This document shows, piece by piece, positions 15,198-19,174 of a stretch of DNA of 24,188 bases (its first letter is position 1; the number at the start of each line of letters is the position of its first letter). A model generated the notes under the pieces. The model made no database searches, was not told where the DNA came from, and saw only the letters and a list, made by a program, of their open reading frames with translations. Position numbers and translations under genes: made by a program. This DNA comes from a virus, in the IMG/VR virus record IMGVR_UViG_3300024335_000049, positions 1 through 24,188 of that record, one strand, 5' to 3'.

Positions 15198-15581
15198 TTA
15201 AAACGGAATTTCATCGTCCATATCGGAAGATGTGTCATTGGGTGAGTTAACAGGGTTCACATGGTTAACAGGGTCACTAGAGGCGCTCTTAGAACTTTGA
15301 AGCGTCAAATCGTTAACCGTTACGCCCAGATATGTTTTGCCGTTATATTCGCGCCGTGTTAGCTCTCCGCTTACAGTAACTTTGGAACCTTTGCTCACAT
15401 AAGGAACAACGGCTATGCCGCGCTTGCCCCAAAACGTGCAGTCGAAATACATGGTTGATTTGTTTGCACCATAACCATCGTCTACAGCTAACGAGAACGA
15501 ACCGAGTCCAGCTTTGTCCATTCCCCCCTCTTTAACTTCACCATCTTTGGTTGCAGTCCCTGCGATTGTAATGACTTTCAT
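15198..15581 (-). CDS. ssb: Single-stranded DNA-binding protein
   Basis: 127 aa. Residues 1-95 fit an OB fold (MKVITIAGTATKDGEVK, FSLAVDDGYG, FDCTFWGKRGIAVVPYVSKG, VTVSGELTRREYNGKTYLGV). A short Ser/Asn/Pro linker leads to the acidic tip DMDDEIPF, the SSB interaction peptide. It covers single strands during phage replication and recombination. The ATG overlaps the annealing-protein stop (ATGA) and AAGGAG lies upstream, so the two are made together. Confidence 0.9.
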   Translation of the reverse strand: MKVITIAGTATKDGEVKEGGMDKAGLGSFSLAVDDGYGANKSTMYFDCTFWGKRGIAVVPYVSKGSKVTVSGELTRREYNGKTYLGVTVNDLTLQSSKSASSDPVNHVNPVNSPNDTSSDMDDEIPF

Positions 15582-16189
15582 AATTTTAGCTCCTTTTTGC
15601 GATCATCATGTGCTTCAACCATGCGGTTAAAATCTTCCTCTGAAAGACCGACTTGGTTTATTGTTTTGACGTATTTTGGTTCAAACTTTTCAAAAGCAGC
15701 CGCGCTGCAACCGTTACTGTAGAAATCAACAACCGCCTGCACCCGGTCTTCTGGCGCTATGCTCATTGGCGTGTGCTTTGGTGCTATTGTTTCGTTCTTG
15801 CGTTCAACACCCACCATTTCATTAGCAGACGCATATGTGCCGCCATGCAGTCCCAGCGAAGCCAATGCGCGTCCAATTGCAGATGTTTCGCAAACTTCCA
15901 AGGCTGATGTTTTGGTTATGTAGGATGATCCGCGTATTTCTTCCGCAAGGCCCGATCCAACAATAAAACCATCTTTGTCTTTAATGATGGCTCGAACAAC
16001 AACTGTTTGCTGGTCGTTATATACAAGCTCTGTTTCGATCCCGTAATTGCCGCCAAACGTAATGCGGAAGGCTTCCATGCGTGTGGAAACCTCTGTGTAT
16101 GACTTGCCGCCCTTTTGCATCACACCGTGAGATTTATTTAACTCACTAACAAGCTCCATAGCATCGTGGAATTTTTTGGTCTCGGTCAT
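15578..16189 (-). CDS. ERF/RAD52-like single-strand annealing protein
   Basis: 203 aa. The core YTEVSTRMEAFRITFGGNYG, IETELVYNDQQTVVVRAIIK and CETSAIGRALASLGL (about 30-125) matches phage single-strand annealing proteins of the ERF/Sak (RAD52-like) superfamily, in which 'ETSAIGRALA.LG' is a hallmark. The C-terminus is a charged helix. It would anneal complementary strands during phage recombination, helped by SSB downstream. GGAG precedes the ATG, which overlaps the upstream stop in TAATG. The choice between ERF and Sak cannot be made by eye. Confidence 0.82.
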   Translation of the reverse strand: MTETKKFHDAMELVSELNKSHGVMQKGGKSYTEVSTRMEAFRITFGGNYGIETELVYNDQQTVVVRAIIKDKDGFIVGSGLAEEIRGSSYITKTSALEVCETSAIGRALASLGLHGGTYASANEMVGVERKNETIAPKHTPMSIAPEDRVQAVVDFYSNGCSAAAFEKFEPKYVKTINQVGLSEEDFNRMVEAHDDRKKELKL

Positions 16190-16467: not shown

Positions 16468-16638
16468 ATGCTAACGCCAGACGAAATTCGTGAAAAGTTA
16501 ACTGACGTAAACATGAGCAAGATTGCTAGGGAGACAGGTTTAACGCGCCCGACGATATATAAATTTCTGACCGGGGCTGAAAATATGCAGTATGATACTG
16601 TCAAAAGGGTTTCGGAATACTTTGAAAGGGAAGTCTAA
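16468..16638 (+). CDS. 56-aa helix-turn-helix protein (Cro/repressor-like)
   Basis: Short ORF MLTPDEIREKLTDVNMSKIA followed by RETGLTRPTIYKFLTGAENM, a clear helix-turn-helix of the Cro/CI or LacI-headpiece type, ending in YDTVKRVSEYFEREV. GGAGA lies 8 bases before the ATG. Its stop overlaps the start of the initiator gene (TAATG). Being the first rightward gene next to the divergent control region, it is a candidate for binding the TTTACA/TTGCAA elements and setting the balance between the two early operons. Confidence 0.8.
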   Translation: MLTPDEIREKLTDVNMSKIARETGLTRPTIYKFLTGAENMQYDTVKRVSEYFEREV

Positions 16639-17330
16639 TGTCTCACCAAATGACAGCACTTGCTATGGAACAGGACTTAGCTCCTGCCCCAAAGATTGTT
16701 CTGTATTGGATTGCTAACCACCATAACGGTGAAACTGGATTGTGCTTTCCGAGTATCAACAGGCTGGCTAAGGTGTGCAGAATGTCCCGGCGATCTGTGG
16801 AGAAGCATATAGCCGATTTGGCAGGGCTTGGTCTTATACAAGTGACTCAAAGGTTTCGTGCTGAAGGTGGTAAGACTTCCAATAGTTACCAGTTGTTTCT
16901 CAAGAGTTCCCAAGAGTTCCAGACCGATGCGCAAAATCTGCGTATGGGTAGCGCAAAATCTGCGCATGGGGATACGCAAAATCTGCGCATGAATAACCTT
17001 GGAAGAAAGAACCTTGGAATAGAAGATAATATATTGGTCGAAAAGTTTGACGATTTTTATAAATGCTTTCCAAGAAAGACGGCGAAGGGTTTAGCGAGAA
17101 AGGCTTGGGAACTTGCAGTTGCAAAGACCAACCCTGATGTTATTATTTCAAAGGCTGCTTTGTATGCGGCCAGTGTAGAGGGCAAAGACAAAAAGTTTAT
17201 CCCGCATCCCGCTACATGGTTAAATCAAGAACGATGGGATGATGAAGTATTCGCTCAAGCAGACAGCGAACAAGATCAACAAAACTTAGTGCATAAGATT
17301 TTTGCAGAAATGGTGAAACCAAATGCGTGA
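16638..17330 (+). CDS. Replication initiator, lambda O-like, with origin repeats inside the gene
   Basis: 230 aa. Residues 1-85 form a winged helix (APKIVLYWIANHH, CFPSINRLAKVCRMSRRSVE, DLAGLGLIQVTQRF), the DNA-binding part of phage initiators. Residues about 88-130 are a low-complexity linker encoded by tandem DNA repeats, among them three 18-bp iterons. The C-terminus (FDDFYKCFPRKTAKGLARKAWEL, KFIPHPATWLNQERWDDE) is the domain commonly joined to such initiators. As in lambda O, the protein probably binds repeats within its own gene to open the origin. The TAATG start couples it to the HTH gene; it overlaps the following gene by 8 bases. Confidence 0.82.
   Translation: MSHQMTALAMEQDLAPAPKIVLYWIANHHNGETGLCFPSINRLAKVCRMSRRSVEKHIADLAGLGLIQVTQRFRAEGGKTSNSYQLFLKSSQEFQTDAQNLRMGSAKSAHGDTQNLRMNNLGRKNLGIEDNILVEKFDDFYKCFPRKTAKGLARKAWELAVAKTNPDVIISKAALYAASVEGKDKKFIPHPATWLNQERWDDEVFAQADSEQDQQNLVHKIFAEMVKPNA
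16901..16920 (+). repeat. Tandem 10-bp repeat before the iterons
   Basis: CAAGAGTTCC is repeated exactly at 16901-16910 and 16911-16920. The 10-base spacing shifts the reading frame, so the two copies encode different residues. It lies 8 bases before the first iteron and may be part of the origin. Confidence 0.8.
16929..16991 (+). repeat. Three 18-bp iterons: candidate replication origin
   Basis: RCGCAAAATCTGCGYATG occurs at 16929-16946, 16951-16968 and 16974-16991, starts 22 and 23 bases apart (about two DNA turns). Copy 2 is the consensus; copy 1 differs at one base and copy 3 at one base. The palindrome-like GCGCA/TGCGC halves flank AAAATC. Copies 1 and 3 are read as QNLRM, copy 2 in another frame as AKSAHG, so the DNA is kept and not the protein. 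An AT-rich stretch follows at about 17015-17065 and could be the unwinding site. This mirrors the lambda origin inside gene O. Confidence 0.8.
16995..17019 (+). repeat. Direct 10-bp repeat after the iterons
   Basis: AACCTTGGAA occurs at 16995-17004 and 17010-17019, 15 bases apart, immediately after the third iteron and before the AT-rich stretch. Together with the CAAGAGTTCC pair it makes the initiator linker a nest of three kinds of direct repeat. Confidence 0.8.
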
Positions 17331-17796
17331 TGAACAGATACAAGAATTAACACTTAAACTTCTAAGCCGATTGAACCCACCAAGGGCGCTGACCGGGCAA
17401 GCACAAGCCATAAAGGATGAAGCCACATTCCTTGCCAAGTGCATAAACAAGGTAGCACCGAGCCAAGGTTTGACAGATTGGTTTAATGATTTTGAAGAGG
17501 CTGTGCTGGGTAACTTAGAAACCCGCACATGGCCTACAGCCAAAGAGCTTTCCAAAGCGGCGCAGCAAATACGAAAGGCCAAGCCAGTTTTTGCAGATCA
17601 TAGCGTTGAAGCTGAATGGCTATTAAACCCGGTAACAATAAACGCAAAGCGCATCCAAGGTGGCCATCCAGTGTGTGAAACATGGTTAAGCGGTAAGAAG
17701 GCGCAGTCGTTGATGGCAACGGGAATGATTAGTGAAAGCGACTTGGCTAAGTACAAAAGAACAGCATCATTGCAAAAAGCAGAGGTTTATGGTTAA
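17323..17796 (+). CDS. Unknown protein in the helicase-loader (lambda P) position
   Basis: 157 aa. Helical start (QIQELTLKLLSRLNPPRALT), FLAKCINKVAPSQGLTDWFN in the middle, then TWPTAKELSKAAQQIRK and a positively charged C-terminus. I recognise no motif for ATP binding or nuclease activity. It overlaps the initiator by 8 bases, and in lambdoid phages the gene in this position recruits the host helicase; 'TWPT..EL..AA' patterns appear in replication-region proteins of alphaproteobacterial phages. A loader or partner of the initiator is thus the best guess. Confidence 0.65.
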   Translation: MRDEQIQELTLKLLSRLNPPRALTGQAQAIKDEATFLAKCINKVAPSQGLTDWFNDFEEAVLGNLETRTWPTAKELSKAAQQIRKAKPVFADHSVEAEWLLNPVTINAKRIQGGHPVCETWLSGKKAQSLMATGMISESDLAKYKRTASLQKAEVYG

Positions 17797-17941: not shown

Positions 17942-19174
17942 ATGAACGAACAAAACTGGCCAGCGGACAAAGTAGAACGCAGAAGCATAAGCAGCATCAT
18001 CCCTTATGCCCGAAACAGTCGAACCCACAGCGATGAACAGGTGGCGCAGATAGCCGCCAGCATTAAAGAGTGGGGATTTACGAACCCGATATTGATCGAC
18101 ATCGATGGCGAAATAATAGCGGGTCATGGCAGACTTCTCGCCGCGCAAAAGCTCGGTTTAAAAGAGGTTCCCTGTATTACCGCTGTTGGGTGGTCGGATG
18201 CTCAAAAGAAAGCCTATGTCATTGCCGACAACAAGCTGGCGCTAAATGCTGGATGGGACAACGATATGCTGGCCATTGAGTTTGGCGAGCTTAAAGATTT
18301 AGATTTTAACTTAGATTTAATCGGTTTTGACTCCGATGAACTTGCCAACATCCTGAAGGAGCCTGAAACTGAAGGTTTGACAGACGAGGACGCCGTGCCA
18401 GAAGCGCCGGAGGTTCCTGTTACAGTTGAAGGCGATGTTTGGTTGCTTGGGTGCCATAGGCTTATGTGTGGAGACAGCACAAGCATTGATGCAGTTGAGA
18501 AGCTGATGGATGAGCAAAAAGCTGACGTCCTTTTTACCGACCCTCCTTATGGAATTGATTTCTCACCACAGCGGGGAACGCATGGCAAAATATTGAATGA
18601 TGCACTTGAGGGGGAAGAATTTGACGAGTTTTTAAATGATACCTTCGCCACCGCTATGTCTGCAATGAAACCTGACACATATGCGTTTATTTGGACGGGT
18701 TGGAGTAAGATTGGCGCATTTGAAAAGGCCATAAAAAAGTTTTTTAAAATTCAAGCGATGCACATTTGGGTAAAAAACAATTTTGGTATTGGTTATTATT
18801 CAAGGCCAAAACATGAGCCGTTCTATTTGTGCCTTAATGGTAAGCCCGTTTATCCATCGACTGCCCCTGCTGATGTTTGGGAAGAAAAGAGGGTTCACAA
18901 GACCATCCACAGTTGCGAAAAGCCAGTGGATTTGATTACAGATATTCTTGACACATATCACAAAAACAGCACGGTGCTTGATTTATTTGGTGGCAGCGGT
19001 TCCACTCTAATTTCTTGCGAAAAGACAGCCCGAGATTGCCGCATGATGGAGTTAGACCCGAAATACTGCGATGTTATCATAAAGCGCTGGCAGAACTTTT
19101 CAGGACAGAAAGCAAAGCTGGAGGCAACTGCGCAAACCTATGATGAATTGAAGCAAGAACGGGTATCGGCATGA
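17942..19174 (+). CDS. ParB-domain / DNA methyltransferase fusion
   Basis: 410 aa. Residues about 12-100 are a ParB-like N-terminal domain (IIPYARNSRTHS, EIIAGHGRLLAAQKLG). The rest is an amino-methyltransferase of the DPPY-first type: the target motif DPPY at 200-203 and the S-adenosylmethionine motif DLFGGSGST at about 347-355. Such fusions modify adenine N6 or cytosine N4 and are frequent in phages, where they are thought to protect DNA from host restriction. No cognate restriction gene is nearby. Placement directly before the terminase genes, with an ATGA overlap, means the DNA would be modified just as it is packaged. Confidence 0.9.
   Translation: MNEQNWPADKVERRSISSIIPYARNSRTHSDEQVAQIAASIKEWGFTNPILIDIDGEIIAGHGRLLAAQKLGLKEVPCITAVGWSDAQKKAYVIADNKLALNAGWDNDMLAIEFGELKDLDFNLDLIGFDSDELANILKEPETEGLTDEDAVPEAPEVPVTVEGDVWLLGCHRLMCGDSTSIDAVEKLMDEQKADVLFTDPPYGIDFSPQRGTHGKILNDALEGEEFDEFLNDTFATAMSAMKPDTYAFIWTGWSKIGAFEKAIKKFFKIQAMHIWVKNNFGIGYYSRPKHEPFYLCLNGKPVYPSTAPADVWEEKRVHKTIHSCEKPVDLITDILDTYHKNSTVLDLFGGSGSTLISCEKTARDCRMMELDPKYCDVIIKRWQNFSGQKAKLEATAQTYDELKQERVSA

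Follow-up and report, generated by a model that had tools for sequence, protein, structure and literature searches.

A predicted lambda-like replication origin inside the coding sequence of an HTH_36-type phage initiator

The initiator gene and its neighbourhood

The window, i.e. the whole stretch of DNA analysed here, is a virus record of 24,188 bases, in which the plus strand at 16638..17330 holds the coding sequence of a replication initiator of 230 amino acids with a winged helix, a disordered linker and a helical C-terminal domain. Its N-terminal part (residues 14-67) matched the profile HTH_36 (PF13730) at 2.1e-13, with 50.3 bits against a curated cut-off of 25, and residues 2-215, covering both domains, matched the replication initiation protein family PHROG 270 at 2.5e-37. 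In the AlphaFold model (AF2, mean pLDDT 77.7) the winged-helix DNA-binding domain extends over residues 16-86 (16683..16895, plus strand) and is composed of helices 16-27, 40-47 and 51-64 and strands 67-73 and 79-86, with a pLDDT of about 85-95. The third of these helices (residues 51-64, 16788..16829, plus strand), which reads RRSVEKHI in the window protein, is regarded as the recognition helix. The presumption in the initial annotation of an initiator whose N-terminal part forms a winged helix was thereby corroborated by both profiles and the model. Between the two domains lies a linker (residues 94-130) predicted to be disordered, residues 94-125 and 127-130 having pLDDT values under 50; it is followed by the helical C-terminal domain (residues 132-204, 17031..17249, plus strand) with the motif ATWLNQERWDDE, which is common to many other phage initiators. 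A fold search with the initiator retrieved generic winged helices and DnaD only, none of them below E 0.001. The N-terminal domain of DnaD of Bacillus subtilis (2v79) displays a weak winged-helix likeness to the window protein without a significant sequence match. DnaD is a helicase-loading factor and works without iterons.

Upstream, at 16468-16638 on the plus strand, a helix-turn-helix protein of 56 amino acids is encoded, which resembles the dnstrm_HI1420-like antidote (PF21716, 1.9e-7), occupies a Cro-like gene position and shares one base with the start of the initiator gene (TAATG). The end of the initiator gene is overlapped by an open reading frame for 157 amino acids (17323-17796, plus strand) without any match in Pfam, PHROG or NCBIfam; by its position, where P is located in lambda, it could encode a helicase loader. 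At 17942-19174 (plus strand) a ParB-like N-terminal domain and an N6/N4 DNA methylase domain (PHROG 498) are joined in one protein. A gene on the minus strand at 15578-16189, which adjoins the SSB gene, encodes a protein of 203 amino acids belonging to PHROG 11717, a family of unknown function, and its product looks like a putative single-strand annealing recombinase. The earlier assignment to a marine podovirus-like phage was checked in part only, the portal protein being of the SU10 type.

Iterons and downstream repeats in the linker-coding DNA

The DNA encoding the linker (16917..17027, plus strand) contains three exact matches of the 18-bp sequence RCGCAAAATCTGCGYATG, spaced 22 and then 23 bp apart on the plus strand: iteron 1 (GCGCAAAATCTGCGTATG, 16929-16946), iteron 2 (GCGCAAAATCTGCGCATG, 16951-16968) and iteron 3 (ACGCAAAATCTGCGCATG, 16974-16991). 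Their offsets in the gene are 291, 313 and 336, so that copies 1 and 3 lie in frame 0 and encode AQNLRM and TQNLRM, whereas a shift of one base puts copy 2 into frame +1, where it encodes AKSAHG. Number, spacing and frames of the copies had already been recognised in the initial annotation and were confirmed in every point. When the 24-kb window was shuffled 100 times with dinucleotides preserved, three matches never occurred, even with three mismatches allowed, and no further copy of RCGCAAAATCTGCGYATG was found elsewhere in it. In addition, every copy is an inverted repeat, GCGCA-AAATC-TGCGC, a feature missed at first reading.

The 28 bp after iteron 3 are taken up by two 13-bp direct repeats on the plus strand, AATAACCTTGGAA (16992..17004) and AAGAACCTTGGAA (17007..17019), 15 bp apart, of which the first presents its AACC 14 nt behind the centre of iteron 3. 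The AT-rich stretch that had been noted here was found at 17020-17069, where 76% of the bases are A or T, and ranks among the least stable 0.3% of all 50-mers of the window. Together, the AACC repeats and this stretch of low stability (16992..17069) represent a candidate DNA unwinding element. As the linker is disordered in the AlphaFold model, the peptide encoded by iterons and AACC repeats thus forms part of a disordered tether.

Relatives were collected in five scans of viral collections and one scan of a genome collection, which yielded 127 distinct genes that share the N-terminal motif, 68 of them remaining after removal of near copies; a viral scan with the SfV type gave only near-identical copies (97-100%) and was left out of the analysis. 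A search for triple repeats over the whole gene and all 100 pairs of spacings (18-27 bp each) placed the best triple repeat in the linker in all 68 relatives, starting at nt 263-307 of the gene. The spacing was 22,23 in 57 of the 68 and differed by one or two bases in the others. In nearly all 68 genes the repeat score was higher than in any of 40 shuffles preserving protein and codon usage, while in three (L034, L040 and L118) the repeat was no better than the best of the 40. With registers fitted by dyad and repeat scores, dyads were detected in most registered iteron copies, their arms being short and often imperfect. The downstream part was similarly retained: each of the 68 relatives has at least two AACC no more than 75 nt from iteron 3, the distance from iteron 3 to the first AACC is exactly 14 nt in 52 of them, and the least stable 50-mer of the gene begins 0-60 nt past iteron 3 in 59. 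Spacing of the AACC is mostly 15 bp, with 35 instances of 13 or 14 bp, which are out of frame.

Among 17 close relatives, synonymous variation was seen in four of the 37 codons that allow it in iterons and downstream element vs 80 of 183 elsewhere in the gene (Fisher p 7e-5), and with respect to synonymous variation the least variable windows of 38 codons begin at codons 100-106. The assumption that the repeat is selected as DNA is thus supported by out-of-frame copies, by scores beyond those of protein-fixed shuffles and by frozen synonymous sites. An alignment of relatives had been proposed as a check, and in these genes the iterons keep their place, their spacing and their dyad form while the linker protein varies freely. 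The close relatives L007-L024, which form one group, have a degenerate middle iteron that lacks its left arm (CGGCAAAAnCTGCGC), with copies 1 and 3 intact; hence the need for the three sites differs, which suggests iterons of unequal importance.

Correspondence between recognition helix and iteron

The iteron half-sites vary by subfamily, and each variant is paired with a particular helix: GCGCA with SRRSVE, TGGCA with SKRAVQ, GTTGCA or GTCGCA with D/N-R/K-S-T, AGGAA with TDRSVR and GTCAAA with S/T-RQSIIN. This correspondence is one of two less expected results of the present study, the other being the GAACC-type repeat found downstream, in differing frames, in many distant initiators. Distances between half-sites correlated with distances in residues 48-62 (r 0.68), and the partial correlation given all other segments was 0.62 (permutation p 0.001, where permutation on distance matrices corrects only in part for shared ancestry); the strictest version of this test excludes five members with doubtful register. 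Two loci agree with this pattern from opposite sides. At the Donghicola locus (L162) the C-terminal domain is only 28% identical to that of the window, yet the helix SRRSVENH and the same iteron are present, whereas L025 has a C-terminal domain 73% identical to that of the window, a helix only 40% identical and a different iteron. Because half-sites follow residues 48-62 and both loci are in accordance, the repeats are most likely recognised by the winged helix of the very initiator whose gene contains them, as far as can be judged from sequence comparison. Since the iterons change in step with the DNA-reading helix, the repeats appear to be kept for the DNA and not for the encoded peptide.

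Donghicola and Thalassobacter belong to the Roseobacter group. Their genomes (L162 and L163, respectively) hold the closest cellular relatives of the initiator gene, and iteron classes are shared as well, the window having its class in common with Donghicola and the viral contig L137 the class GTTGCAAAACGC with Thalassobacter; both observations hint at a host from the Roseobacter group.

It has to be considered whether the coupling of helix and iteron arose merely from block exchange of adjacent DNA between phages, without the helix reading the iteron, given their distance of about 100 bp and the modular recombination of phages. However, segments between them or nearer to the iterons show little or no coupling, since the partial correlations were -0.03 for residues 63-74, 0.18 for 75-90, 0.01 for 120-135 and about zero for the C-terminal domain, vs 0.62 for the helix. 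As segments 63-74 and 120-135, nearer to the repeats, show no correlation, simple linkage fails to explain the coupling, and block exchange as its sole cause is considered unlikely.

A role of the repeats as operators, through which the initiator would repress a gene, be it its own or a neighbour, without any part in an origin, would fit the coupling equally well, and dyads bound by winged helices are typical of repressors. However, the sites are situated about 290 bp into the gene instead of at its start, three phased sites and an AACC/AT-rich element at fixed distance would be needless for a repressor, and the protein encoded by this gene belongs to a family of replication initiators, which renders this explanation quite improbable. 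Each copy could also form a short stem with a loop of 5 nt, and the inverted repeats might then act as RNA hairpins in termination, antitermination or translation control; but the arms are short and often imperfect, and their sequence tracks the recognition helix of the protein, which an RNA role does not predict, so that such hairpins are very improbable as the reason for the repeats. Finally, conservation for the sake of the linker peptide (QNLRM/NNLG) with the DNA repeat as a by-product, to which the same peptide in the in-frame copies 1 and 3 might point, is hardly credible and was rejected, because most relatives have copy 2 in another frame (those 57 with 22,23 spacing), repeats exceed protein-fixed shuffles, synonymous sites are frozen, Asn-Leu is encoded by AAT-CTG inside the iterons vs AAC-CTT inside the downstream repeats, and the linker is predicted to be disordered.

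A lambda-like predicted origin and its possible distribution

Taken as a site of replication initiation, the iteron segment resembles the origin of lambda. In the lambda record, gene O is annotated with four iterons, which have offsets of 20, 24 and 23 and lie in mixed frames, so this kind of origin is already known. Lambda iterons are inverted repeats which bind O dimers, and O also binds the opened strand (PMC5043065, PMC7466680). As in the window, the origins of lambda and of the Stx phages 933W and P27 comprise dyadic iterons about 20-24 bp apart within the initiator gene, which likewise lie in mixed reading frames and are followed by an AT-rich stretch (PMC7466680). What characterises the lambda type, namely several in-gene iterons selected as DNA, inverted repeats of a form that suits a dimer and an adjoining AT-rich region, was all found in the window. 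Differences concern the number of iterons, four of the TCCCTCAAAACGAGGGA type in lambda vs three with near-constant 22/23 spacing in the window, the AACC direct repeats, which are present in the window and absent beside the lambda iterons, and above all the protein. The window initiator matched neither PF04492 nor TIGR01610, the lambda O family, with HTH_36 as its sole hit, while lambda O itself, used as a control, matched PF04492 at 5.7e-36; membership in the lambda O family was therefore rejected. Of the lambda-O arrangement with a different iteron suggested in the initial annotation, the iteron layout consequently stands, whereas the protein belongs to HTH_36/PHROG 270, and the locus is therefore addressed as a lambda-like predicted origin in a different initiator family.

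A comparison with iteron plasmids is also obvious, since in plasmids such as RK2 (TrfA) and F (RepE), too, iterons specific to the replicon adjoin an AT-rich element that contains short direct repeats; the AT-rich region of RK2 carries 13-mers, of which the Rep protein binds one strand (PMC4081077). However, plasmid iterons are mostly direct, non-dyadic and bound by monomers (PMC5043065), whereas those of the window are dyads inside a gene; an origin of the iteron-plasmid kind, with asymmetric direct-repeat iterons and a monomeric initiator, was accordingly discarded. In mycobacterial prophages with RepA-like initiators the origin was suspected in or next to repA, and no repeats were found (PMC7157519). 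The open literature yielded no description of an origin for an HTH_36/PHROG 270 initiator, which is weak evidence as subscription papers were outside its coverage.

Altogether, a replication origin located inside the coding sequence of its own initiator and working like lambda ori in gene O is predicted here with high confidence. Such DNA can host an origin because the encoded linker is disordered and its peptide hardly matters. Dimers of the initiator would bind the three dyadic iterons via their winged helices, and the near-constant spacing of 22/23 bp, about two helical turns, would allow the bound proteins to stack as one complex. The stacked complex would strain the neighbouring AT-rich DNA and lead to its opening, and at the AACC direct repeats the initiator or a partner probably holds one exposed strand during loading of the host helicase. 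Origin function of the segment and the proposed steps, from dimer binding through melting and strand capture to helicase loading, are what we infer by analogy to the known systems. GC skew, which had been suggested as a further indication, changes sign near 16.0-16.5 kb; this turn is uninformative, because divergent genes switch strand at the same place, and was set aside as origin evidence.

With regard to more distant initiators, members of PHROG 270 and PHROG 391 (SfV orf39, Vibrio phage D59, Pseudomonas phages) share with the window the winged helix, the linker and often the same C-terminal domain, and they also display repeat arrays in the linker with AACC repeats afterwards, while each subfamily differs in having its own iteron sequence and copy number. 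In SfV, Vibrio phage D59, Pseudomonas phages, Arthrobacter phage Marchesin and prophage genes, linker arrays tend to be followed by GAACC-type repeats in differing frames. Among the initiator linkers of L423-L441 and L522-L570, many from unrelated phages contain direct repeats of GAACC/TAGAACC 10-16 bp apart, located after the linker repeats and occurring in all three frames.

In an unbiased count over 62 diverse genes, a set that mixes initiators with different N-terminal domains, pairs of AACC 10-16 bp apart ranked second of 256 four-letter words, being present in 26 of the 62 vs a mean of 13.7 and a maximum of 22 in 200 protein-preserving shuffles. In a second set of 29 genes, taken later from other genomes, the top three words were GAAC, ACCA and AACC. 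GAAC occurred in 13 of these genes (mean of 300 shuffles 4.9, maximum 11) and AACC in 12 vs 5.5, a level just reached by shuffles; in 16 of the 29 the repeats went beyond shuffling at p 0.05. The GAACC-type element is missing from many distant initiator genes. These counts are suggestive of a GAACC-type repeat 3' of the arrays in many distant initiators. It is conceivable, though somewhat less likely than not, that HTH_36 phage initiators share an in-gene origin of two parts, i.e. an iteron half-site dictated by the helix in a readable code and a sequence-specific unwinding element of the GAACC type, retained at DNA level across frames in phages of Alpha- and Gammaproteobacteria and of Actinobacteria.

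For a large class of phages with unmapped origins, these would become locatable by sequence analysis, and the readable match of helix and half-site that is suggested here may allow compatible and incompatible replicons to be predicted. The GAACC-type repeat provides a concrete candidate for the unwinding element. Moreover, the gene would be a clean example of a linker whose sequence is set by the task of the DNA.
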